Shown here: piece by piece, positions 1,491-24,205 of the stretch
How the letters are laid out: every line of letters begins with the position of its first letter
Position numbering within the stretch: position 1 is the first letter of the stretch
Source: an uncultured Erythrobacter sp.
GTDB lineage: Bacteria > Pseudomonadota > Alphaproteobacteria > Sphingomonadales > Sphingomonadaceae
Length of the DNA: 64,000 nucleotides
Direction of reading: 5' to 3'
NCBI RefSeq assembly: GCF_947492365.1
Contig: NZ_CANLMB010000002.1
Span: 62,001-126,000, forward strand
Translations under genes and position numbers: made by a program
The notes under the pieces: model-generated
Told to the model about the DNA's origin: nothing
Database searches by the model: none
Seen by the model: only the letters and a program-made list of their open reading frames with translations

Positions 1491-1607
1491 CGGAATTCTC
1501 CTCTTGTCGCGTCCCTAATGGGCATCTGCCGCCCGCGCCTCCACGCATAAAAGTGTCAGTCGCTGCGCTGTGTGCCTCTGGTATCCTCCTCAATGAGGAG
1601 AACACCT

Positions 1608-3758
1608 ATGGGCGTCGAGACACACAAGACATTCTGCCGTTTCTGCCATGCGAACTGCGCGATGGAAGTGGATGTCGAAGTCACTGATCAGGGGCGCAAA
1701 GTGGTGGAGGTGCGCGGCGATCCCGACGACCCGGCCTATGGCGGCTACACCTGCATGAAAGGGCGCGAACTGCCCGATTCGCACAATGCCGAGCACCGGC
1801 TACATCACAGCCTCGTGCGCGGCGAGGATGGCGAGTTTCGCGAGATGGCGATGGGTGAAACGCTTGAGCATGTGGCGTCCGAACTGCGCCGGATTATCGA
1901 CAAGCACGGCCCGCATTCGGTCGCGGTGTTCATGGGCTCGGGCGGCTTCCAGAACAGCTCCGCCATGGCCGCCTCGCTCAGCTTCGCGCAGGCCATTGGC
2001 AGCCGCAATTTCTACACTTCGGTTACGCTCGACCAGCCGGCCAAGGTCTTCACCACCATGCGTTATGGCAAATGGATGGCGGGGCCGAATACGTTTTCGG
2101 AGAGCGATGTCGCCTTCTTCATCGGCAACAATCCGATCGTCTCGCATTATGCGCCTGTGGGCGGGGTTCCGCCCTTCAGCCCTTCACGCCGCATCCGCGA
2201 CCGGCAGGCAGAAGGCATGAAGTTGATCGTCGCCGATCCGCGCGAAAGCGATGTGGCGCGGCTTGCCGATATCTATCTGCCAGTGAAGCCGGGCGAAGAC
2301 CCCGCGCTGCTCGCCGGGATGCTCAACGTCATTATCGAAGAGGGGCTTTACGACCGCAATTTCGTCTCAGCCCATGTCGACGGGTTTGACGCGCTTGCGG
2401 AGGCGGTGAAGCCGATGACGCCCGAAGTCGCGGCTGAGCGTGCGGGTGTCGAGGCCGACCAGCTCATCGCCGCCGCGCGGCTGTTTGCAGGCGGCTCAAA
2501 AGGTTGCGCTGTCACCGGCACTGGTCCTGAAATGGCTGGCAATGGGACGCTCACCGAATATCTGGTTGTCTGCCTCAACACGATCTGCGCGCGCTTCAAG
2601 CAAGAGGGCGAAAAAGCCGCGATTCCCGGTGTCTTCACCACACCGCAAGGCCCGCGCCGTGCGCAGGTCGCTCCGCCCGTGCCGATGTTCGGCGCCGAAG
2701 GCATGCCCACATCGCGCTTTCGCGGGCTGGGGCACCTCGGCTGGGAGATGCCATGCAACGTCCTCGCCGATGAAATCCTTACGCCCGGCGAAGGTCAGGT
2801 GCGCGCGCTGATCTCGGTCGGCGGCAATCCGGTTGTCGGCTTCCCCGACCAGGTGAAAATGGCCCGCGCGCTCGATGATCTCGACATGTTCGTCCAGATC
2901 GATCCGTGGATGAGCGCCAGTGCCAAGCGTGCCGATGTCGTGCTCGCCCCGTCACAGTGCCTTGAACGCGAGGACATCACCAACCTTTCCGAATGGTGGC
3001 ACGAAACGCCCTATGCGCGCTATGTCGAGGCGGTGGCGACCCCGCCGGGCGACGTGATCGACGAATATGAAATGTTCTGGACGCTAGCCAACCATCTGGG
3101 CGTAACCATGCAGCTTGCCGGTGGCCCGCTGCCGATGGATCGCAAACCGACGAAGGAAGAATTCCTCGACCTGATGACCGCCGGTTGCCTCGTTCCGCCC
3201 AGTCAGGTGCGCAAGGATGTGGCCAAGGCAGACGGCGATGCGGTGGTTTACGATCACCTCCATCCCGATGTGGAGCCGGTCGAGGAAAGCGAGTTTCACC
3301 GCTTCGACCTTGCCGTGGACGCAATGCCTGCAGAGATTACGCGCTATGCTGGCAACGCGCCGGTGCGCGAGGGTTTCGACTTCAAACTCATCAGCCGCCG
3401 CTCGAAAACGCGTTTCAACTCGATCGGGCATCCGCTCAAGAAGTTGCAGGAAAAGACCACCACCAACCCCGCCTATATCCATCCCGAGGATATTACCGCA
3501 CTCGGACTTGAGGAAGGCGGCATTGTCGCGATCACCTCTCCCCATGCGACCATTCACGGCGTCGTGAAAGCGAGCGACAAGGTCAGACGCGGCCTCGTGT
3601 CGATGGCGCATGCTTACGGCGATGTTGACGCGACCAAGGAGGACGTGCGCGAGCGGGGCTCATCAACCAACCGGCTGACCAGCGAGGTGGTCGATTACGA
3701 CCCGATCACCGGCCAAAGCCTGCAAAGCGCGATCCCTGTAAAACTGGTCGCGGCCTGA
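1608..3758 (+). CDS. Single-subunit molybdopterin-dependent oxidoreductase
   Basis: A 716-residue protein of the DMSO-reductase superfamily. I start it at ATG 1608, which has a GAGGAG site upstream; an in-frame GTG at 1572 adds 12 unlikely residues. A [4Fe-4S] motif is near the N-terminus: C10-x2-C13-x3-C17 with C49 as fourth ligand. The central domains carry typical bis-MGD segments such as FFIGNNPIV and VADPRESD, and the C-terminal domain includes the TNPAYIHPED and SMAHAYGD segments. No cysteine is visible where the Mo ligand of formate dehydrogenases or nitrate reductases is expected; the stretch reads TLDQPAK, so an Asp or other ligand is possible. No signal peptide and no partner subunits are adjacent, so it is probably cytoplasmic. 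The context suggests oxidation, hydroxylation or hydration in catabolism. Confidence 0.88.
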   Translation: MGVETHKTFCRFCHANCAMEVDVEVTDQGRKVVEVRGDPDDPAYGGYTCMKGRELPDSHNAEHRLHHSLVRGEDGEFREMAMGETLEHVASELRRIIDKHGPHSVAVFMGSGGFQNSSAMAASLSFAQAIGSRNFYTSVTLDQPAKVFTTMRYGKWMAGPNTFSESDVAFFIGNNPIVSHYAPVGGVPPFSPSRRIRDRQAEGMKLIVADPRESDVARLADIYLPVKPGEDPALLAGMLNVIIEEGLYDRNFVSAHVDGFDALAEAVKPMTPEVAAERAGVEADQLIAAARLFAGGSKGCAVTGTGPEMAGNGTLTEYLVVCLNTICARFKQEGEKAAIPGVFTTPQGPRRAQVAPPVPMFGAEGMPTSRFRGLGHLGWEMPCNVLADEILTPGEGQVRALISVGGNPVVGFPDQVKMARALDDLDMFVQIDPWMSASAKRADVVLAPSQCLEREDITNLSEWWHETPYARYVEAVATPPGDVIDEYEMFWTLANHLGVTMQLAGGPLPMDRKPTKEEFLDLMTAGCLVPPSQVRKDVAKADGDAVVYDHLHPDVEPVEESEFHRFDLAVDAMPAEITRYAGNAPVREGFDFKLISRRSKTRFNSIGHPLKKLQEKTTTNPAYIHPEDITALGLEEGGIVAITSPHATIHGVVKASDKVRRGLVSMAHAYGDVDATKEDVRERGSSTNRLTSEVVDYDPITGQSLQSAIPVKLVAA

Positions 3759-3788: not shown

Positions 3789-4802
3789 ATGCCCGATAAC
3801 CGGCGCTTCCTCCTCCAGCGTCGCCCCGATGGCGAGCCGGTTCCCGAAGACTTCGAGCTCGTCACCGAGCCGGCACCCGAGCTGGCCGAGGGGCAGTTCC
3901 TGATCCGCAACCACTACGCCTCGCTCGATCCGGCGATGCGCGGGTGGATGGACGCGGGCGGGAATTACATGCCCCCGGTGCCGCTGGGCACCGCGATGCG
4001 CGCCAGCACAATCGGCGTGGTCGAGGAAAGCCGCGCTGACGGGTTCGAGGAAGGCCAATGGGTCATGGGCCTCAACGCGCTGGAGGATTATTCGGTCGGC
4101 GAAGTGGGCGGGTTCACCCAGCCGATCGACCCGGACCTTGTGCCTAAGATCACCAATTACCTCTCGATCTTCGGCGCAGTCGGCATGACCGCCTATTTCG
4201 GCTTCCTCGAAGTGTGCGAGCCGAAAGAGGGTGAAACTGTGCTGGTTTCGGGAGCAGCGGGCGCGGTTGGCTCGCTCGTCGGGCAACTTGCCAAGATCCA
4301 CGGCTGCCGCGCAGTTGGCATTGCCGGCGGTCCGGAGAAATGTGCGCGTTTGACCGAGAAATACGGCTTCGACGCGGCCATCGACTATCGCGGGAAGGAC
4401 GAAGCCGCACTCACCAAAGCCATCGCCGAAGCTGCGCCGAACGGCGTGGACGTTATCTTCGAGAATGTCGGCGGGGCGATCCTCGATGCGGGGTTAATGA
4501 ACCTCAACCTGTACGCGCGCGTCGGGCTGTGCGGGCTTATCAGCGAATACAACACCGAGGCCGTCGGCGCGCGCAATCTGTGGAACCTCATTGTGACCCG
4601 CTCCTCGATCCGCGGCCTGCTGGTGATGGATTTCGTCGAGCGCTTCGGCGAAGGCGCGGCCAAGATGGGCGAATGGGCGGCTGCCGGAAAGCTCGCAATC
4701 GACGAGCATGTCGATGAGGGGCTGGAAGGCGCTTATGACAGCTTCATGCGCCTGTTTGCAGGAACCAATGACGGCAAGATGATCCTCAAGATCGCCGAAT
4801 GA
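3789..4802 (+). CDS. NADP-dependent MDR oxidoreductase (paralog of the 489-1490 gene)
   Basis: A 337-residue zinc-free MDR enzyme with the same architecture as the divergent gene at 489-1490: a GroES-like domain, VGMTAYFGF at about 131-139, and VSGAAGAVG at about 153-161 as the NADPH loop. The pair looks like an old duplication rather than a recent one, since the N-termini differ clearly. It lies 30 nt after the molybdoenzyme gene. Its stop overlaps the start of the ThuA gene by 4 nt, so it is probably translated as part of one operon. The expected reaction is reduction of an alpha,beta-unsaturated ketone or aldehyde; the physiological substrate is not deducible. Confidence 0.85.
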   Translation: MPDNRRFLLQRRPDGEPVPEDFELVTEPAPELAEGQFLIRNHYASLDPAMRGWMDAGGNYMPPVPLGTAMRASTIGVVEESRADGFEEGQWVMGLNALEDYSVGEVGGFTQPIDPDLVPKITNYLSIFGAVGMTAYFGFLEVCEPKEGETVLVSGAAGAVGSLVGQLAKIHGCRAVGIAGGPEKCARLTEKYGFDAAIDYRGKDEAALTKAIAEAAPNGVDVIFENVGGAILDAGLMNLNLYARVGLCGLISEYNTEAVGARNLWNLIVTRSSIRGLLVMDFVERFGEGAAKMGEWAAAGKLAIDEHVDEGLEGAYDSFMRLFAGTNDGKMILKIAE

Positions 4803-5575
4803 GCAAGTCGCTGCTCGTCCTTTCGGGAGGCCATCCTTACGAGGCCGAACCGTTCGAGCAGCTGATCCATTCGCTTGGCGATTGGGACGTCACGCATCTG
4901 GTCCATCCGGAAGCCGAAGAGGCGGTCGGCGAGGGCGCGGCCAAAGATGCCGACGCACTGCTGTTCTATGACATGGGCGGCTACATCTTTGCCGATGACT
5001 GGGTGACGTCACGCCCGCCATCCGAAGCCTATCGCCGCGCGATTATCGACCGCTTTGCCAGCGGGCGCGGGGCGGTGGCGATGCATCATGCGCTCGCCGG
5101 ATGGGCGGACTGGCCCGAGTGGCATGACATGCTGGGCGGGCGCTTTCTCTACACGCCCGGCAAAGTGCGCGGGGCACCCTCTCCCGACTCAGGTTATCGC
5201 CATGACGTCGACTATACCGCGCAGGTGGTTGCCGATCACCCCGTCACCGCCGGACTTCCCGCCGAGTTCCCCATGTGCGACGAGCTCTATCTCGCCCATG
5301 TGTTCGAGGATGACGTCACGCCGCTGATCCGCTCCAGCCACACCTTCACACGCGACAATTTCTACTCCGCCACGCTCGCCATTTCGGGCACGCTCTATTC
5401 GAACGAGGGCTGGGAGCATCCCGATGGCAGCAACCTCGTCGCGTGGCACAAGCAGGTTGGAGCCGCCCCGTTGGTCTATCTCCAGTTCGGCGATACACCC
5501 GAAACCTATGCCAACCCGCATATGCGCAAAGCGCTATCCAACGCCCTTCATTTCATTGCCGGAGAGACGCCATGA
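4799..5575 (+). CDS. ThuA-domain protein (copy 1)
   Basis: The 258-residue protein has the ThuA / class I glutamine-amidotransferase-like fold. It begins SLLVLSGGHPYE, continues with ALLFYDMGGY, then an AMHHALAGWADW block and GGRFLYTP. The late HPVTAGLP and DELYLAHV motifs are family hallmarks. ThuA proteins were first linked to trehalose/disaccharide utilisation and many have unknown activity. The start codon overlaps the preceding stop (ATGA), and its own stop overlaps the next start in the same way, so it is translationally coupled to the MDR and LEH-like genes. No signal peptide is seen. A second, divergent copy lies at 10884-11639. Confidence 0.85.
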   Translation: MSKSLLVLSGGHPYEAEPFEQLIHSLGDWDVTHLVHPEAEEAVGEGAAKDADALLFYDMGGYIFADDWVTSRPPSEAYRRAIIDRFASGRGAVAMHHALAGWADWPEWHDMLGGRFLYTPGKVRGAPSPDSGYRHDVDYTAQVVADHPVTAGLPAEFPMCDELYLAHVFEDDVTPLIRSSHTFTRDNFYSATLAISGTLYSNEGWEHPDGSNLVAWHKQVGAAPLVYLQFGDTPETYANPHMRKALSNALHFIAGETP

Positions 5576-7318: not shown

Positions 7319-8407
7319 ATGAACTTCGATCTTTCCGAAGAGCAGGAACTGTTCCGCAGCTCGGTCGAGCGCTTTTGTGCGCCTATCGATGTCGAAGCGC
7401 GGCGCAGATTGCGCCTTTCGCCGACCGGATATGACCGCAACCGCTGGAGCCAGCTTGCCGAATTGGGCCTGATCGCGCTCGCCGCGCCTGAAGAGGCTGG
7501 CGGCATGGGCGGTTCGAATGTCGATCTGGCGCTGGTCGCAGAGGCTCTCGGCAAGGCCAATTCGCCTGACCCGCTGCTCGAGCACGGCGTGCTGCCTGCC
7601 CTGCTTTTGGCGCGCGGGGGAGCCGGCGACACGGTGGAATCGGTGCTGAGCGGCGAGAGCATCGTCAGCCTCGCATGGGCCGAACGCGCGCAACGCTATA
7701 ACCTCGCGCCTGCGCATATGAAGGCAGAGAGCACCGGCGAAGGCTTTGTGCTCACCGGCGAGAAAACATTCGTCATGGGCGCGCTGCTGGCTGACATGTT
7801 CATCGTCACCGCCGATCTGGGCGGCGAAACCGGGTGCTTCCTAGTCCCTGCCGATGCCGAAGGCGTCGAAACGCGCGCCTACCGACTTGCAGATGGCAGT
7901 ATTGCGGGTGAGCTGAAGCTGACGCAGGTCAGGCTCGATGCAGCCGCAAGGCTCGACCTCGACCACACCGCGCTCGAAGCCATTGTCGCCAATGCCCGCC
8001 TGCTCGCTGCCGCCGAAATGGTAGGTCTGGGCCAGCGCCTGCTCGACGACACGCTCCAATATGTGAAGGAACGCGAGCAGTTCGGCGTTGCCATCGGTTC
8101 GTTCCAGGCGCTCCAGCACCGTCTGGTCGACGCCTATGCCAAGGTCGAGCAATGCCGCTCGATGCTCTACCGTGCCGCGCTCGCCGACCCGTCGCACAGC
8201 GCAGAATGGCATCGCGCCACCGCCGGAGCGAAGGCTTTCATCGGCGAGAATGTCGATGCGGTCGCGCGCGAGGCAGTGCAGATGCATGGCGGCATGGGGG
8301 TCACCGACGAGCTTGGCATCGGCCATGCGATGAAGCGCGTGATGGTGCTCGCACGGCTGTTCGGCGACACCGACACCGTGCTCGGCGAATATGCAGCTGC
8401 GGCCTGA
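7319..8407 (+). CDS. Acyl-CoA dehydrogenase (smaller-subunit type)
   Basis: A 362-residue ACAD-family flavoprotein starting MNFDLSEEQELFR. The middle domain is divergent and the C-terminal helical domain carries REQFGVAIGSFQALQHR and VQMHGGMGVTDELG. The family oxidises acyl-CoA to 2-enoyl-CoA and passes electrons to ETF; etfBA is at 41,261-42,969. The short length and low conservation around the FAD loop resemble the partner-type subunits of heteromeric dehydrogenases described for steroid side-chain catabolism (ChsE-type FadE pairs). The longer ACAD at 11,642-12,850 would be the natural partner. It lies 9 nt after the P450, in one operon. Confidence 0.88.
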   Translation: MNFDLSEEQELFRSSVERFCAPIDVEARRRLRLSPTGYDRNRWSQLAELGLIALAAPEEAGGMGGSNVDLALVAEALGKANSPDPLLEHGVLPALLLARGGAGDTVESVLSGESIVSLAWAERAQRYNLAPAHMKAESTGEGFVLTGEKTFVMGALLADMFIVTADLGGETGCFLVPADAEGVETRAYRLADGSIAGELKLTQVRLDAAARLDLDHTALEAIVANARLLAAAEMVGLGQRLLDDTLQYVKEREQFGVAIGSFQALQHRLVDAYAKVEQCRSMLYRAALADPSHSAEWHRATAGAKAFIGENVDAVAREAVQMHGGMGVTDELGIGHAMKRVMVLARLFGDTDTVLGEYAAAA

Positions 8408-8418
8408 GGGGAACTGAG

Positions 8419-8841
8419 ATGGGACAGAAAATCGACCCCGCTCTTTGGAGCGACGATTCAAAGCCGCATTTGATGGGCGGCAGGCTGCCCTCGGGCGAGA
8501 TCGTCTTCCCGATGCCGCAAGGCGATGCGGCGAAAGATGTCGAGCCTTACAAGCTCTCGCGCACCGGCACGCTCTGGTCGTGGACCACGCAGGGATTTTT
8601 GCCAAAGGAGCCCTATGAAGGCCCCGGTTCCGGCCCCGGCGAAGGCCCGCCCGATTTCCAGCCATTCCTGCTCGGCTATGTCGAATTGCCCGGCGAGGTG
8701 ATTGTCGAAAGCCGGATCGTCGGAGCGCGGCTCGAAGACCTGTCGCTGGGTATGCCGATGGAGTTCTGCATCGTGCCGTTCAACACCGAACATGACACTT
8801 TCGCCTTCCGACCAGCCGCCGCGCAGGAGCAAGCCGCATGA
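8419..8841 (+). CDS. DUF35 / OB-fold protein, thiolase partner, zinc-ribbon cysteines absent
   Basis: A 140-residue protein starting at ATG 8419. It has the DUF35 order: a short N-terminal linker, then a segment where a rubredoxin-like zinc ribbon is expected (GGRLPSGEIVFPMPQG), then an OB-fold with GTLWSWTTQ, FLLGYVELPG and the closing strand. The Cys-x2-Cys pairs that hold zinc in most members are missing; the only cysteine is in EFCIVPF. DUF35 proteins bind thiolase-fold enzymes: for Ltp2 the DUF35 domain of ChsH2 is required for steroid side-chain retro-aldol cleavage. Its stop overlaps the thiolase-like start by 4 nt, which supports an obligate complex. Confidence 0.82.
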   Translation: MGQKIDPALWSDDSKPHLMGGRLPSGEIVFPMPQGDAAKDVEPYKLSRTGTLWSWTTQGFLPKEPYEGPGSGPGEGPPDFQPFLLGYVELPGEVIVESRIVGARLEDLSLGMPMEFCIVPFNTEHDTFAFRPAAAQEQAA

Positions 8842-10010
8842 GAGAACCAGTCTATATCATCGGCGCGGGCATCCACCCTTTTGGCCGGACTGACGAACGT
8901 TCGGGCCGCGAACAGGGCGTTTTCGCTGTGCGCCAGGCGCTTGCGGATGCAGGGCTCGACTGGGCCGATATGGAATGCGCCTATGGCGGCAGCGCGGCTG
9001 CGGGCAATGCCGATATCATGGTCAACGAGCTGGGCCTGACTTCGCTGCCCTTCACCAATGTCGCCAATGGCTGCGCGACCGGCGGCAGCGCGCTGGTTGC
9101 CGCACAGCAGGCAATTGCGAGCGGGATGTATGATCTCGCGCTCGCGGTCGGCTTCGACAAGCATCCGCGCGGGGCCTTCAACGCCAAGCCTGCCGATTAC
9201 GGCCTGCCCGAATGGTACGGCCAGACCGGCATGATGCTGACAACGCAATTCTTCGCGCTCAAGATCCAGCGCTATATGCAATTGCACGGGATCAGCCGGA
9301 CCACGCTGGGCCGTGTCGCGCAAAAGGCATTCCGCAACGGCGCCAAGACCCCGCATGCCTGGCGGCGCAGCGAGATTGATCTCGAAACGATCATGAACGC
9401 GCCGATGATCAACGATCCGCTGACAAAGTTCATGTTCTGCTCGCCCGCAGAAGGCGGCGTCGCGCTGATCCTGGCGAGCGAGAAGAAGGCGCGCGAGATG
9501 GGCGCGCTCGACAACAATGCCAGCGTGAAAATCTCCAACATCGCCGTGCGGACCCGTCCGCCTGACTCGTTCGAGGTGTTCCAAGCCGGTGTCAGCGTGA
9601 AGGAAGGCGGCAAGCCCACCGTGCTCGCTTCCAAAGCGGCATTCGAAGGCGCAGGGATCGGCCCTGACGAGATCGAAGTCGCGCAATTGCAGGACACCGA
9701 AAGCGGCGCGGAGATCATGCACATGGCCGAAAACGGTTTCTGCAAGGATGGCGAGCAGGAAGAATGGCTCGCCAATGGCTGGTCCGAGCAAGGCGGCAAA
9801 CTGCCGATCAACACCGATGGCGGGTGCCTCGCTTGCGGGGAGCCGATTGGCGCTTCGGGTCTCAGACAGGTTTACGAAAATGTCGAACAGCTGCGCGGGC
9901 GCGCGGGCGAACGGCAGGTGCCGGGCCGTGACGGTTCAGGGCCCAAGACCGGCTACAGCCACGTCTATGGCGCGCCGGGCCTTTCGGCAGTGGCAATTCT
10001 GGAGCGATAA
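8838..10010 (+). CDS. Thiolase-fold protein (SCP2/Ltp type; putative CoA aldolase or thiolase)
   Basis: A 390-residue thiolase-superfamily protein of the lipid-transfer/SCP2-thiolase branch. A Cys in the nucleophile position is present (NGCATGG, C79). The usual Gly-His-Pro general-base motif reads GEPIGASG instead, with Glu at residue 335, and the usual His-Asp-Cys-Phe region reads QLQDTESG. The changed His argues against ordinary Claisen thiolysis and fits the retro-aldolase idea known for Ltp2-type proteins. Translation is coupled to the DUF35 gene by an ATGA overlap, and the next SDR gene starts directly after its stop. The predicted role is release of a short acyl-CoA and a ketone from a branched side chain (inference). 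Confidence 0.82.
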   Translation: MREPVYIIGAGIHPFGRTDERSGREQGVFAVRQALADAGLDWADMECAYGGSAAAGNADIMVNELGLTSLPFTNVANGCATGGSALVAAQQAIASGMYDLALAVGFDKHPRGAFNAKPADYGLPEWYGQTGMMLTTQFFALKIQRYMQLHGISRTTLGRVAQKAFRNGAKTPHAWRRSEIDLETIMNAPMINDPLTKFMFCSPAEGGVALILASEKKAREMGALDNNASVKISNIAVRTRPPDSFEVFQAGVSVKEGGKPTVLASKAAFEGAGIGPDEIEVAQLQDTESGAEIMHMAENGFCKDGEQEEWLANGWSEQGGKLPINTDGGCLACGEPIGASGLRQVYENVEQLRGRAGERQVPGRDGSGPKTGYSHVYGAPGLSAVAILER

Positions 10011-10781
10011 ATGGGCAAGATGAGCAATAAAGTCGCGCTGGTCACAGGCGGCGCGGAAGGGATCGGAGCCAATGTTGGCCGGATGATCGTTGCAGAGGGC
10101 GGCAAGGTGCTGCTGTGCGACGTCCAGATCGACAAGGCGCAGGCGCTGGCCGAAGAGCTGGGCGAGAATGCAGCCGCGTTCGAACTCGACGTGCGCGATC
10201 TTGGCCAATGGCAAAAGGCGGTGCGCGCGGTTCACGAGCATTTCGGCAAATTGAACGTGCTGTGCAACATCGCAGGCATCTCCGAACCCGGCAACGTTGT
10301 CGATGTTGATCTCGACAGCTGGCGGCGCACCATCGAGATCAATCTCGAAGGGCCGTTCTATGGCTGCCGCGCCGCGATCCCCGCGATGGAAGCCAGCGGA
10401 GAGCCTTGCGCCATCGTCAATATCGGATCGATGATCGCAATCCGTCCGGCTGCCTTTGTCGCTGCCTATAGTGCTTCCAAAGCGGGTTTGGTTGGCCTTA
10501 CCCGTTCCATCGCGCTCGATTGCGCCGAACGCGGCCTGCCGATCCGCGCCAACATGGTCCATCCCGGCGCGATCCGCACGCCGATGTATGAGCGCTACAA
10601 ATTCTCAGGCATGGACGAGCCGGAGAATATTGAGCGCGACTTTGCCGCCACCCACCCGATGAACCGCATCGGCGAACCCGACGAAGTGGCCAAGGCAGTC
10701 GTCTTCCTCGCCAGCGACGAAGCAAGTTTCACCACCGGCTGCGACTTCACTGTTGACGGCGGCGGAAGCATCAGGAGCTGA
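10011..10781 (+). CDS. SDR-family oxidoreductase (3-ketoacyl/alcohol dehydrogenase type)
   Basis: A 256-residue classical short-chain dehydrogenase. TGGAEGIG forms the NAD(P) loop, NIAG follows strand 4, and the catalytic set Ser (IGSM), Tyr and Lys (YSASK) is intact. The C-terminus ends TVDGGGSIRS. The start codon immediately follows the thiolase stop, so it is part of the same operon. A hydroxyacyl-CoA or hydroxysteroid dehydrogenase role is plausible, but the cofactor and substrate cannot be told from sequence alone. The last 25 nt are duplicated about 98 bp downstream, which is described separately. Confidence 0.88.
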   Translation: MGKMSNKVALVTGGAEGIGANVGRMIVAEGGKVLLCDVQIDKAQALAEELGENAAAFELDVRDLGQWQKAVRAVHEHFGKLNVLCNIAGISEPGNVVDVDLDSWRRTIEINLEGPFYGCRAAIPAMEASGEPCAIVNIGSMIAIRPAAFVAAYSASKAGLVGLTRSIALDCAERGLPIRANMVHPGAIRTPMYERYKFSGMDEPENIERDFAATHPMNRIGEPDEVAKAVVFLASDEASFTTGCDFTVDGGGSIRS

Positions 10782-10883: not shown

Positions 10884-11639
10884 ATGGCAGAACAACCGGC
10901 ACAACGCATTGACGCGCATTTCATCGCGGCGGGCAAGTATCACGATATCGACTATCCGCGCCTTGAAGTGCTCAAGCTGCTGGCCGAGCATCCGCATATC
11001 CGCACAACGGTTGGCTGCGACTATTCGGGGCTGGAGCGGCTCGACCAGTGCCGCTTCCTCATAACCTATACTTGCGACCTGATGCCGAGTGAGGAACAGG
11101 CCAAACAGCTGCGCAGCTGGCTCGAGGCGGGCGGCAAATGGCTCGCGCTCCACGGCACCAATTCGATCCTCGTCTTCACCGAAGACGGTCTGGTCGATGC
11201 GCCGGAAAACCGCCCCGACGTCTTCGACATGCTCGGCACCCAGTTCAAGGCGCACCCGCCGATCGGCCAGTTCGAAGTCGAGGTCGTCAACAAGGACCAC
11301 GAACTCACGCGCGGGATCGAGGATTTCGAGGTCGTAGACGAGCTCTATCTCTCCAAGACCACCGCCGAGATCGACACTTTGATGCAGACCACGTTCGAAG
11401 GCGAAGCCACCGGCTTTGTCGAGGGCCAGTGGGAGAAGACCGCCGTGCCGATCCTTTACACAAGAGACATCGGCAAGGGGCGGATCGTCTACAACACGCT
11501 GGGCCATTGCCGCGGGCACTATGACCTGCCCGGAATGCAGGATTTTTACCCGCACAAGGAAATGTGCGCGTGGAACTATGATGTGTATTACGACATGCTC
11601 CGCCGCAGCATCGGCTGGGCGATGAGAGAGGGTGAATAA
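10884..11639 (+). CDS. ThuA-domain protein (copy 2)
   Basis: A 251-residue ThuA-fold protein related to the copy at 4799-5575 but well diverged. It has DAHFIAAGKYHDIDY at the N-terminus, then the ALHGTNSIL block (nucleophile-elbow region of the amidotransferase-like fold), HPPIGQFEV, and VVDELYLS, which matches DELYLAHV of copy 1. It ends with NTLGHCRGHYDLPG. The ribosome site lies inside the second 25-nt repeat. The next ACAD gene follows after 2 nt. Two different ThuA proteins in one lipid-type catabolic operon is unusual. No sugar gene is nearby, so a function outside disaccharide metabolism is likely. Confidence 0.84.
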   Translation: MAEQPAQRIDAHFIAAGKYHDIDYPRLEVLKLLAEHPHIRTTVGCDYSGLERLDQCRFLITYTCDLMPSEEQAKQLRSWLEAGGKWLALHGTNSILVFTEDGLVDAPENRPDVFDMLGTQFKAHPPIGQFEVEVVNKDHELTRGIEDFEVVDELYLSKTTAEIDTLMQTTFEGEATGFVEGQWEKTAVPILYTRDIGKGRIVYNTLGHCRGHYDLPGMQDFYPHKEMCAWNYDVYYDMLRRSIGWAMREGE

Positions 11640-11641
11640 GT

Positions 11642-12850
11642 ATGGACATGACCTTCTCACCCGAAGACCTCGCCTTTCGCGAAGAGGTGCGCACATTTCT
11701 CGCCGAGAAACTGCCCGACCGGCTGCGCGACGGCGCGCGGCGCACACCTGGCGTGTTTGTCGAGCCTGACATCGGCCTCGAATGGCATCGCACGCTCAAT
11801 GAGCGCGGCTGGGTCGCGCCGCATTGGCCCAAGGAAGATGGCGGCACAGGCTGGACGCCGGTGCAGAAATTCATCTTTGAAAAGGAATGCGCGCTGGCGG
11901 GGGCGCCCGCGCTCTCGATCCTCGGCCTGCGCCTCGTCGGCCCGGTGATCTGCGCTTTCGGCACGCCTGAACAGAAAGAGCGATTCCTCCCGCGCATCCT
12001 CAATGCCGAGGATTACTGGTGTCAGGGTTATTCGGAGCCGGGATCAGGCTCCGATCTTGCCTCGCTCAAAACCGCCGCGCGGCGTGAGGGCGACGAATAT
12101 GTCGTCAACGGCTCCAAGATCTGGACCACCCACGCGCATCACGCCAACTGGATCTTCGCGCTCGTGCGCACCGACAATTCGGGCAAGAAGCAGGCGGGCA
12201 TCACCTTCCTGCTGCTGCCGATGGATCAGGACGGGATCGAAGTCAGCCCGATCCATTCGATGTCGGGCGATCACGAGGTCAATCAGGTCTTTTTCAGCGA
12301 CGCGCGCACGCCGGTTGAGAACCGTATCGGCGAAGAAGGCGCAGGCTGGACGATTGCCAAATTTCTGCTCGAAAACGAGCGCGGCGGATCGTGCTTTGCC
12401 CCGCGCCTGCTCCAGAGCATCGAGAAATTGCAGGAGCTGGCCCAAACGCAGCCTTCGGGTGTCAACGGCGCGATTGCGCATGATCCGCGCTTCCGCGACC
12501 GGCTGGCGCGCGCGCGGCTGGAGGCAGAAGCGCTCGAGTTCACCGAGCTGCGCATTCTCGCCGAACTGGCAAAGGGCCGCGCGCCCGGTCCGCAGACCTC
12601 GCTGGTGAAGATGCTGGGGTCGAATATCGGGCAGGAGATCGACACGCTCCGGCTCGAACTGCTCGGCACCGATGCGCTGCAATTGCCGCTCGAACGTCCG
12701 CTCTACGGCAACGAAGCGCCCGAACCGGTCGGCAGCGAAATGGCCCAGACCGCGATGGGCCGCTACCTCAACAACCGCGCCGCGACGATCTTTGGCGGGT
12801 CGGACGAGGTGCAGAAGAACATTATCGCAAAGACTGTTCTGGGTCTTTGA
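11642..12850 (+). CDS. Acyl-CoA dehydrogenase (larger-subunit type)
   Basis: A 402-residue ACAD with all canonical landmarks: MTFSPEDLAFREEVRTFL at the start, WPKEDGGTGW, the FAD/substrate loop YSEPGSGSDLAS, the strand VNGSKIWTTHAH, and the C-terminal FGGSDEVQKNIIAKTVLGL. The last motif is typical of FadE-type dehydrogenases of steroid and alicyclic pathways. Members of this group often form alpha2beta2 heterotetramers with a shorter ACAD, for which the gene at 7319-8407 is a candidate. It sits 2 nt after the ThuA gene in the same operon. Confidence 0.92.
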   Translation: MDMTFSPEDLAFREEVRTFLAEKLPDRLRDGARRTPGVFVEPDIGLEWHRTLNERGWVAPHWPKEDGGTGWTPVQKFIFEKECALAGAPALSILGLRLVGPVICAFGTPEQKERFLPRILNAEDYWCQGYSEPGSGSDLASLKTAARREGDEYVVNGSKIWTTHAHHANWIFALVRTDNSGKKQAGITFLLLPMDQDGIEVSPIHSMSGDHEVNQVFFSDARTPVENRIGEEGAGWTIAKFLLENERGGSCFAPRLLQSIEKLQELAQTQPSGVNGAIAHDPRFRDRLARARLEAEALEFTELRILAELAKGRAPGPQTSLVKMLGSNIGQEIDTLRLELLGTDALQLPLERPLYGNEAPEPVGSEMAQTAMGRYLNNRAATIFGGSDEVQKNIIAKTVLGL

Positions 12851-22250: not shown

Positions 22251-23237
22251 TTACGCCTTCCCCACAGCTGCCTTGATCTGGCCGACGATCTCATCCTTGG
22301 TCGGAATCCATGCCTGCTCCAGATGGGTGGCGAAGGGCACGGCGGAGAAGGTCCCGCCGATCCGGCGCACTGGGCCTTTGAGATTGTCCCAGCACTTCTC
22401 CTGAATGTTGGCAGCGATCTCTGCGCCCGTGCCAAAGGGACGAACCGCTTCGTGAAGCGTGAGCGCGCGTCCGGTCTTGTTGACCGATGCGAGCACGGTG
22501 GCCTCATCGTAAGGCGCGATGGTTCTGAGATCGACGACCTCGACGCTGATCCCTTCCTTCTCCAGCTCGCCCGCGACTTCGAGCGCGTCGAGCACGGTGC
22601 GGCCATAGGTGATGAGCGAGATGTCATTGCCTTCCCTCGCCACAGCAGCCTTGCCCAGCGGGACGCGGTAACCGGGGCCGGGGTCTTCGCTGGTAAGGCC
22701 GTAGCAAAGGATGTTCTCGATGAAGATCACCGGGTCATTCGCGTCGATGGCAGAGCGCATCAGCCCGCGCGCATCGGCGGCGTTCGACGGGGTGACGACA
22801 TGGATGCCGGCGACGTGGGCAAACCACGCCTCCAGCATGTCGGAGTGCTGTCCGCCGAAGCCGACACCCACGCCGGTCGTGGTGCGGATCACCAGCGGGC
22901 ACGGCGTCTGGCCGCCGCTCATAAAGCGCAGTTTGGCCGCGTGGTTGACAATCTGGTCCATGCACACGCCGACGAAGTTCATCAGCATGATCTCGGCAAT
23001 CGGACGCTGGCCCGCAAGCGCCGCACCCACAGCAGCGCCGATGATCGCGGTCTCGGAGATTGGCGTCGCACGGATGCGGTTCTCGCCATACTTCTCGGTC
23101 AAGCCGGAAGTGATCTTGAAGACGCCCCCGCCCTGTTTCGCCGCGACATCCTCGCCGAGGCAGAACACGCCGTCATCTTCGGCCATCGCCTCGTCAATCG
23201 CGAGGTTGAGGGCCTGGGTCATGGTGATCTCGGCCAT
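22251..23237 (-). CDS. 2-oxoacid dehydrogenase-type E1 beta subunit
   Basis: A 328-residue transketolase-like E1beta protein (pyrimidine-binding and C-terminal domains). LNLAIDEAMAEDDGVFCLGEDV is the classic beginning, with the TPP-activating Glu in LGED; RIRATPISETAIIGAAVG and MSGGQTPCPLVIRTT follow. The C-terminal domain contains VEVVDLRTIAPYD. With E1alpha it forms a thiamine-dependent alpha2beta2 decarboxylase or C-C lyase, as in pyruvate, branched-chain or acetoin dehydrogenases. It overlaps the E1alpha stop by 1 nt and is contiguous with the lipoyl gene. The substrate cannot be told; acetoin or another alpha-hydroxyketone is an option. Confidence 0.92.
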   Translation of the reverse strand: MAEITMTQALNLAIDEAMAEDDGVFCLGEDVAAKQGGGVFKITSGLTEKYGENRIRATPISETAIIGAAVGAALAGQRPIAEIMLMNFVGVCMDQIVNHAAKLRFMSGGQTPCPLVIRTTTGVGVGFGGQHSDMLEAWFAHVAGIHVVTPSNAADARGLMRSAIDANDPVIFIENILCYGLTSEDPGPGYRVPLGKAAVAREGNDISLITYGRTVLDALEVAGELEKEGISVEVVDLRTIAPYDEATVLASVNKTGRALTLHEAVRPFGTGAEIAANIQEKCWDNLKGPVRRIGGTFSAVPFATHLEQAWIPTKDEIVGQIKAAVGKA

Positions 23238-24205
23238 TACGCAGTCTCCTCAAGCACGTCTTTGTAGATCTCGTCCGTATCCGGCAGCGGCGCATCGAGC
23301 GCGTGCTGGACAGCCCCTTCGATCTCGGCGTCGATATCCGCCACGATCTTGTCGAGCTCCTCTTCGGTGAACTGGCGGTCCAGCATCACCTGGCGCAGTT
23401 TGGGCAGAGGATCCTCGGCAGCCATTTCGGCAAGATGCTCTGGCGGCATGTAAGAGAAGTCGGAGCCGAAGAAGTGGCCCATCATGCGGTAGCACATGGC
23501 CTCAACCAGAACCGGTCCCTTGCCGCTGCGTGCGTGTTCAACCGCTTCTTCCATCGCCGGATAGACCGCGTTCACATCGTTGCCATCGACCTTGACGCCC
23601 TTCATCCCGTAACCCGCCGCGCGGGACGAGATATCGGGGCTGTCAGTGTGGTCGGCATAGGCGGTGTGTTCGCCGTAGCGGTTGTTCTGGCACAGGAAGA
23701 CCACGGGCAGCTTGTAAAGCTGGGCCATGTTCATCGCTTCGTGAAAGCCGCCAATATTGGCGGCGCCGTCGCCGAAGCTCACCAGCGTCACGCGCCCATC
23801 GCCGTTGTTCTGGCTTGCCATGGCAAGGCCGTTGGCGATCGGCAGGCCGCTGCCAACCACGCCGGTTGTCACCATGATCCCCGTTTCGGGATCGGTGATG
23901 TGCATCGTCCCGCCCTTGCCCTTGCAAGTGCCGGTCGCCTTGCCGAGGCATTCGCCCCACCATTTCTCGATCGGGATGCCCTTGGCGGTCTGCTCGCCCT
24001 GCCCGCGATAGGTGCACACGACGTAATCGTCATCTTCGAGCGCCGCCATCGCGGCGGCAGAGACAAGCTCCTGCCCGCGCACGCAGTAATACATGACGGC
24101 AACCTTGCCCTGCATGAGAAGCTCTCGGAACTTCTCATCGGTACGGTTCACCTTCATCGTGCGGGTGTAAATATCAAGCAGCTTGTCGCGGTCTATCTCG
24201 GCCAT
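23237..24205 (-). CDS. 2-oxoacid dehydrogenase-type E1 alpha subunit
   Basis: A 322-residue TPP-binding E1alpha protein. GDGAANIGGFHEAMN is the diphosphate/Mg motif, followed by LPVVFLCQNN; GKGGTMH and GIVGAG-like VVGSGLPIANG are also present. Length and absence of long phosphorylation loops fit the acetoin dehydrogenase/PDH E1alpha group of bacteria. It is the first gene of the E1alpha-E1beta-lipoyl set, 32 nt after the SDR at 24238-25002, so all are likely one operon. Neither the E2 core nor the E3 dihydrolipoamide dehydrogenase is present nearby, so at least E3 must come from the housekeeping complex. Confidence 0.92.
   Translation of the reverse strand: MAEIDRDKLLDIYTRTMKVNRTDEKFRELLMQGKVAVMYYCVRGQELVSAAAMAALEDDDYVVCTYRGQGEQTAKGIPIEKWWGECLGKATGTCKGKGGTMHITDPETGIMVTTGVVGSGLPIANGLAMASQNNGDGRVTLVSFGDGAANIGGFHEAMNMAQLYKLPVVFLCQNNRYGEHTAYADHTDSPDISSRAAGYGMKGVKVDGNDVNAVYPAMEEAVEHARSGKGPVLVEAMCYRMMGHFFGSDFSYMPPEHLAEMAAEDPLPKLRQVMLDRQFTEEELDKIVADIDAEIEGAVQHALDAPLPDTDEIYKDVLEETA

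Follow-up and report, generated by a model that had tools for sequence, protein, structure and literature searches.

The DNA analysed here is a stretch of 64,000 nucleotides (the window) from a contig of an uncultured Erythrobacter sp., and it carries on its forward strand a gene for a DUF35-like protein that overlaps a gene for a thiolase-fold enzyme with altered active-site motifs. The first gene (8419-8841) encodes a DUF35-like, OB-fold partner of 140 amino acids, modelled by AlphaFold2 (AF2) with a predicted local distance difference test score (pLDDT) of 87.8, and the second (8838-10010) encodes the thiolase-fold enzyme of 390 amino acids. The first-pass annotation of this DNA had correctly placed the overlapping pair at 8419-10010; the overlap is an ATGA at 8838-8841. 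The partner matches the OB-fold family PF01796 (OB_ChsH2_C) over residues 45-117 (8551-8769, forward strand; 43.7 bits, cut-off 27.1) and provides the sole PF01796 match (E ≤0.001) in the 3.16 Mb source genome; a profile search at E 0.001 listed no PF12172 (zinc-ribbon) match for the 140-residue protein.

The 390-residue protein matches Thiolase_C_1, Thiolase_N and Thiolase_C above their cut-offs, which identifies a thiolase superfamily fold, and none of the best 25 of 28 NCBIfam models for it reaches its cut-off. Its closest homologs are found in Erythrobacter. Together with its wider relatives it forms a clade of 148 loci and 122 distinct sequences (47-100% identity to the window protein), with hosts in two phyla: Sphingomonadales, Rhodococcus, one Streptomyces and a Mycobacterium branderi plasmid. 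A partner gene lies adjacent in 143 of these loci, with the ATGA-type spacing (a gap of 0 as scored) in 103, and from this adjacency and overlap we infer that the DUF35-like and thiolase-like proteins form a complex.

Active-site residues of the clade

Alignment with solved chains and 27 non-clade homologs places C79 (codon 9072-9074, forward strand as for all residues below) at the nucleophile Cys of thiolases and E335 (codon 9840-9842) at the His of the GHP motif. The first-pass annotation had pointed to both positions, and both hold throughout the clade: C79 is present in 122/122 distinct sequences, and G334-E335-P336 (9837-9845), which replaces GHP, is unchanged in all 120 sequences that reach this position. 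A third change had gone unnoticed, namely that Q285-D286-T287-E288 (9690-9701) stands in place of HDCF/HDAF; Q285, D286 and T287 are unchanged in the 121 sequences that reach them, and E288 becomes Asp in two, so that the motif reads QDTE or QDTD. D107, K108 and H109 are likewise invariant (122/122); H109 (9162-9164), within GFDKHPRGAF, is also a His in BbsB. H375 of SHVYGAPG (9960-9962) is less strictly kept, with Gln in 3 of 119 sequences. The clade therefore has the thiolase nucleophile Cys and has neither HDCF/HDAF (or NEAF) nor GHP.

These residue counts refer to the 122 distinct sequences, and the counts for zinc ligands given below refer to loci, because the 148 loci include overlapping fetches of one gene (for example L001/L144, L073/L173 and L176/L180). 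Five of the 148 have no adjacent partner: three whose match touches or lies close to the end of a contig (L023, L064 and L076), the M. branderi locus (L143) and L182. The last of these, from genome G405, is a clade member whose match begins at residue 26 and near which no adjacent DUF35 gene was found; it is possibly decaying.

The clade is set apart from its relatives by a step in identity. In a plasmid collection, identities of at least 47% were found for 19 of the best 40 of 229 records (E 1e-30), the next being at most 37%, and in an order-level genome sample identity falls from 63% to 38%. Other motifs are found in the non-clade homologs that were compared (at most 38% identity), and none of the 27 that were aligned has the residue combination of the clade. 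A Glu at the GHP His occurs in one of them, L098, which sits on a long branch and reads GEA. This distant thiolase-like protein (genome G119) has ADNT for HDCF and a DUF35-like open frame in its locus, and is perhaps a second independent Glu case. Two other non-clade homologs, L089 (G114) and L099 (G147), have Ser for the nucleophile Cys and keep HDAF and GHP.

Since the altered residues are invariant at 47-100% identity and over two phyla, the altered site is a stable trait of the clade, neither a chance change nor the mark of a decayed gene. The conservation of the 390-residue protein is about that of its enzymatic neighbours.

Placement of the clade among thiolases and aldolases

Among solved chains, the 390-residue protein best matches sterol carrier protein 2 (SCP2) thiolase type 1 (E 8.2e-45) and BbsB (E 1.2e-42), with a much weaker match to Ltp2 (E 1.9e-23). 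By alignment, SCP2 thiolases have the pattern C...HDCF...GHP and BbsB has C...HDAF...GHP, and in TcLtp2, CtSal and IpfD the Cys is Gly and the second motif reads Y-D-H-F, Y-D-C-Y and Y-D-A-F, respectively. In a first tree of 40 rows, the clade formed one group (support 100/100) and the aldolase-like proteins, namely Ltp2, Sal, IpfD, 4u4e and relatives, formed another (100/100), whose eight rows all have Gly when aligned at the nucleophile position of the window protein; the clade itself fell with BbsB and SCP2 type 1 (95/97). A second, larger tree from which the motif columns were masked recovered the clade (100/99) and the aldolase-like group (100/99) and again placed the former with BbsB and SCP2 type-1 thiolases (99/95). 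The label thiolase in these trees covers every row outside the clade and the aldolases, including L089 and L099, with their Ser, and L166, which has no Cys and stands in the second tree.

The first-pass annotation had proposed that the pair forms a distinct subclass, and had likened it to Ltp2-type aldolases. The former proposal agrees with the trees, in which the clade remains a single group with the motif columns removed, and with the absence of the usual acid/base and oxyanion residues. The proposed kinship fares less well: the aldolases stand on a separate branch in both trees, and the clade keeps its Cys. Approximately unbiased (AU) tests with clade and aldolases constrained together divide on this point, for the joined topology was rejected with the larger, motif-masked and carefully searched data set (p=0.026) and was not rejected in a smaller test on a quick tree (p=0.34). 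Sampling, method and alignment columns were not the same in the two: two long rows, Mbran_THL_A and L098, were dropped for the first, and nine rows were added and others dropped for the second. The grouping with BbsB and SCP2 type 1 seen in both trees is what we consider the likely position of the clade on its sequences.

Structural comparison with VIA gives the same order, the aldolases scoring lower than Cys thiolases of the SCP2 type or with a DUF35 partner. The AF2 model of the 390-residue protein (pLDDT 72.2, predicted template modelling score 0.82) scored highest against 6esq_A (Z 43.5, root-mean-square deviation (rmsd) 2.3, 352 residues aligned), followed by 6hsp_B (Z 43.2; 2.4, 350), 7pxp_C (Z 41.9; 2.6, 351), PhlC (5mg5_C; Z 40.0, rmsd 2.5, 345), Ltp2 (6ok1_C; Z 37.1; 2.8, 348) and Sal (9myr_A; Z 35.6; 3.1, 348). 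The best match of the partner model was BbsA (7pxp_E; Z 12.8, rmsd 2.9, 118 aligned), ahead of ChsH2 (Z 10.7; 3.5, 117) and Shy (Z 10.3; 3.6, 119). Low confidence around the active site of the 390-residue model restricts these scores to a statement about the fold.

Among characterised systems, the benzoylsuccinyl-CoA thiolase BbsAB (PDB 7pxp/7pyt) resembles the window pair in its DUF35 partner and nucleophile Cys. BbsB, which its PDB entries call a thiolase and which is among the best structural matches of the 390-residue protein, further resembles the clade in lacking a second Cys (HDAF) and in having a His at the H109 position, but it differs in keeping both His residues (HDAF and GHP) and shares only about 28% identity. 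SCP2 thiolase type 1 (PDB 6hsj/6hrv), the top PDB sequence score, likewise has the nucleophile Cys, but its HDCF and GHP motifs are intact, and we know of no DUF35 partner for it. The steroid aldolases Ltp2-ChsH2 and Sal-Shy (6ok1 and 9myr) share with the clade a DUF35-bound thiolase fold in which both oxyanion-hole His residues are replaced; unlike the clade, they have Gly for Cys and Tyr at the HDCF His position (Q285 in the clade), and their DUF35 domain is fused to a MaoC hydratase, unlike the window partner. IpfDE of the ibuprofen upper pathway (plasmid pIBU218) pairs a thiolase fold with a separate DUF35-like gene, as the window does, whereas IpfD has Gly for Cys and YDAF and groups with Ltp2 and Sal. 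PhlABC combines a DUF35 subunit with a Cys-nucleophile thiolase-fold subunit and, according to an excerpt of PMC6392133, breaks and makes aryl-acyl C-C bonds; it differs from the window pair in the presence of the thiolase His (His347) and of an HMGCS-like third subunit. A DUF35 partner is no pointer to an aldolase, since one also accompanies BbsB, PhlC and the acetoacetyl-CoA thiolase of archaea.

Zinc site of the DUF35 partner

The degenerate zinc ribbon of the window partner spans roughly residues 18-38 (8470-8532, forward strand), where GGR-LPSGEIVFPMPQGDAA aligns in register with the R. opacus zinc ribbon GGRCGDCGTVTFPVQDTCPRC. The 140-residue protein contains a single Cys, which is not a zinc ligand, and has neither a four-Cys (C4) nor a C3H1 ribbon. 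The first-pass annotation had described the partner as devoid of zinc Cys pairs, which is true of the window protein and of most of the clade but not of all of it: the two CxxC pairs are absent in the window partner and in 136 of the 143 loci with an adjacent partner, and both are present in the other 7. Every partner domain of the 136 zinc-less loci has at most three Cys. The zinc-type partners are those of five actinobacterial loci (L141, L142, L145, L146 and L147; hosts R. opacus, with two near-identical loci, R. qingshengii, Rhodococcus USK13 and Streptomyces) and one Sphingomonadales partner with a C4 ribbon, for which L176 and L180 represent the same gene. An excerpt of PMC12329534 describes four-Cys zinc binding in DUF35 homologs of the BbsA kind.

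In a further quick tree, built from the thiolase-like proteins, the zinc-less rows cluster together (SH-like approximate likelihood ratio test (SH-aLRT) 90) and a single change suffices for the 40 scored rows, which do not include M. branderi (L143) or L182. In M. branderi a zinc-less DUF35 gene lies about 2 kb from the clade gene, and if it is the partner, it adds a second loss. Because zinc-keeping partners occur within the Cys/Gln/Glu clade and the tree calls for one loss inside it, the sequences indicate that zinc loss is later than the active-site change and that the two are separate events. Their joint treatment as one oddity in the first-pass annotation is thus at odds with the distribution of partners and with the tree. 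Zinc loss says little about the chemistry, and we discarded it as a mark of chemistry on account of its later date.

Zinc-less partners also occur elsewhere. The ibuprofen retro-aldolase, too, has a DUF35-like partner without the C4 ribbon, the product of ipfE (L150:13229-13627, reverse strand, pIBU218). In a Sphingomonadales sample of non-clade DUF35 proteins (29 loci out of the matches listed, with a further 3 loci lacking a DUF35 match), 15 of 18 had the zinc pattern and 3 had none, counts that are approximate because they come from a regular expression run over the whole open frame. At L177 (G348), a BbsB-like protein has a DUF35 partner without the C4 ribbon, another independent zinc loss.

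Gene neighbourhood and candidate chemistry

Neighbouring genes were counted over 53 loci of at least 17 kb on genome contigs, a homolog being scored at 45% identity or more anywhere in the fetched stretch. A DUF35 gene is present in 53/53. The short-chain dehydrogenase/reductase (SDR) oxidoreductase gene that follows the pair (10011-10781, forward strand) has a homolog directly downstream in 52/53. Homologs are found in 47/53 loci for each of five further genes: the cytochrome P450 (6059-7309, forward), two acyl-CoA dehydrogenases whose nearest families, both below cut-off, are pimD_small (7319-8407, forward) and pimC_large (11642-12850, forward), a molybdopterin oxidoreductase of the formate dehydrogenase/nitrate reductase kind (1572-3758) and a curcumin-reductase-like enzyme. 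Two ThuA-like proteins (PF06283) are encoded at 4799-5575 and 10884-11639; the second has a homolog in 48/53 loci, and ThuA-like genes lie beside many clade loci elsewhere. Just before the P450 lies the gene for a small protein with the limonene-1,2-epoxide hydrolase domain PF07858 (5572-5952), a combination that hints at epoxide chemistry. Taken together, the P450, this epoxide-hydrolase-like protein, a Rieske oxygenase and the pimeloyl-CoA-dehydrogenase-like enzymes suggest at most that the substrate may be an alicyclic or isoprenoid acid. The 22 window genes scanned include no classical aldehyde dehydrogenase.

Genes resembling E1 and E2 of acetoin dehydrogenase accompany the pair on three annotated plasmids (L140, L148 and L149) and at L184-L188 and L190-L192; their products would form a complex that cleaves an acyloin or a 2-oxo acid. 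On plasmids of Novosphingobium, Croceicoccus and Sphingobium the DUF35 and thiolase-like genes are followed by those for an acyl-CoA dehydrogenase, E1 alpha, E1 beta and E2, in that order; the three E1/E2 genes were matched at 66% or more in 8 of 20 loci examined and more weakly (36-48%) in a ninth, L194. The window has E1 alpha and beta genes at 22251-24205, on the opposite strand. In R. qingshengii an enoyl-CoA hydratase gene lies directly upstream of the pair, and a 76% match to it is encoded in the Streptomyces locus. On the R. opacus plasmid pRop44186_a (L142:8719-13137) the clade pair adjoins an Ltp2-like pair, whose thiolase-fold member reads YDCF, matches 6ok1 with E 2.2e-91 and has a zinc-ribbon DUF35 partner; L147 is similar. 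As both DUF35 pairs stand in one R. opacus cluster, they probably serve different steps of related pathways. We also considered the known sphingomonad bile-salt side-chain cluster and rejected it: bsd I of C. tardaugens comprises, in the main text of its paper as far as excerpted, a monooxygenase, Scd4AB, SclA, a MaoC hydratase and a hydrolase, and the words thiolase and DUF35 are absent from that text.

Our first choice, held tentatively, is that the pair is a DUF35-dependent, thiolase-fold Cys/Glu enzyme that would cleave a C-C bond of a β-ketoacyl-CoA through an acyl-Cys intermediate with a rebuilt acid/base set. Acyl-Cys chemistry is put first because no clade member has lost the nucleophile. 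C79 would attack the β-keto carbon, with the alkoxide held by a backbone oxyanion hole formed at C79 and the C-terminal glycine loop; the leaving acyl-CoA enolate would be held by Q285, which takes the place of a His in SCP2 thiolases and is still able to act as a hydrogen-bond donor to it, and would be protonated by E335, at the place of their GHP His. Transfer of the acyl group from C79 to CoA would then complete the two acyl-CoA products. The DUF35 subunit would sit at the dimer edge and shape the pocket, with packing substituting for zinc in the window lineage. The reaction would be the last step of a β-oxidation-like round on a bulky acyl-CoA that products of nearby genes would supply, namely a ligase, a P450/Rieske oxygenase, the two acyl-CoA dehydrogenases and the SDR; the last of these, encoded directly downstream, could make the β-keto group. 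E335 is a natural candidate for the acid/base. OleA has a Cys as its nucleophile. The lack of a second Cys would have its precedent in BbsB and E335 would have one in the Glu of OleA, a general base within the thiolase superfamily according to an excerpt of PMC7064751.

Several observations weigh against this proposal. Both His residues of the enolate oxyanion hole are replaced (by Q285 and E335) and the second Cys is Thr; an excerpt of PMC3406046 ties this His pair to enolate stabilisation in thiolases, and a negatively charged Glu would repel the enolate unless protonated. The first AU test did not reject a union with the aldolases. In the second tree, the nearest single row to the clade is L089 (86/69), and L099 stands beside BbsB; both have Ser for Cys, so the nucleophile has been lost on the BbsB/SCP2 side as well, and two archaeal Cys thiolases stand beside the aldolases (92/95). 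Active-site loops of the 390-residue model, among them 76-80, 189-204 and 328-337, have a pLDDT below 50. Lastly, the scan of 22 window genes brought up no classical-family hydratase or 3-hydroxyacyl-CoA dehydrogenase.

A retro-aldolase of a new subclass, as the first-pass annotation had suggested, is a rather unlikely alternative. Here E335, perhaps with Q285 or H109, would deprotonate a β-hydroxyl and the C-C bond would break; the acyl-CoA enolate would be protonated by a pocket acid (T287, E288 or C79), with C79 as a proton donor and not as a nucleophile. The same positions are changed in Ltp2 and Sal (HDCF to YDHF or YDCY, GHP to other residues; alignment and an excerpt of PMC12329534), Ltp2 and Sal bind DUF35 domains, a DUF35-like gene lies beside IpfD, and the neighbouring Ltp2-like and clade pairs of R. 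opacus may indicate similar pathways. Kinship is compatible with the first AU test, but the larger tree rejects it, the eight aldolase-group rows have Gly where the clade never loses its Cys, and the HDCF His position is occupied by Gln (Q285) and not by Tyr.

In a PhlC-like Cys acyltransferase or C-C hydrolase, which we regard as unlikely, C79 would accept the acyl moiety of a ketone or acyl-CoA and hand it on to a non-CoA acceptor or water activated by E335. The clade keeps the nucleophile without the enolate-holding His pair, which fits such a transfer, as does the VIA score of PhlC (Z 40.0). In the ketosynthase CerJ, an acidic residue at the equivalent place goes with ester formation. PhlC, a DUF35-associated thiolase-fold protein, has an essential Cys88 that was found acetylated (excerpt of PMC6392133), but it keeps His347 and works with an HMGCS-like third subunit, for which the scan of the 21 other window genes showed no counterpart, and the catabolic neighbourhood is rich in acyl-CoA enzymes. 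A non-catalytic structural or regulatory role, to which the absence of the customary His, Cys and His from HDCF and GHP might point, is highly improbable given replacement residues that are invariant over two phyla and conservation on a par with enzymatic neighbours.

DUF35-coupled thiolase-fold enzymes are known, and what is new is the Cys/Gln/Glu site; no paper on this clade, by title or abstract, appeared among the matches listed from the open-licence literature. From its sequences, the clade may represent a new catalytic subclass of the thiolase superfamily, a proposal we advance with reserve: a Cys with Gln and Glu for the two His residues and no second Cys, coupled to DUF35, found in Alphaproteobacteria and Actinomycetota, and possibly acting in C-C cleavage of a bulky isoprenoid-like or alicyclic acid. 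A few residue swaps have already sufficed to make aldolases, acyltransferases and condensing enzymes from the thiolase fold. A clade that keeps the nucleophile and swaps its surroundings would show on which residues the choice between retro-Claisen and retro-aldol cleavage depends, and cultured sphingomonads carry this one often enough for direct testing. The series of partners, with zinc in Rhodococcus and Streptomyces, without it in most sphingomonads and with it in one, makes the role of the DUF35 zinc addressable.

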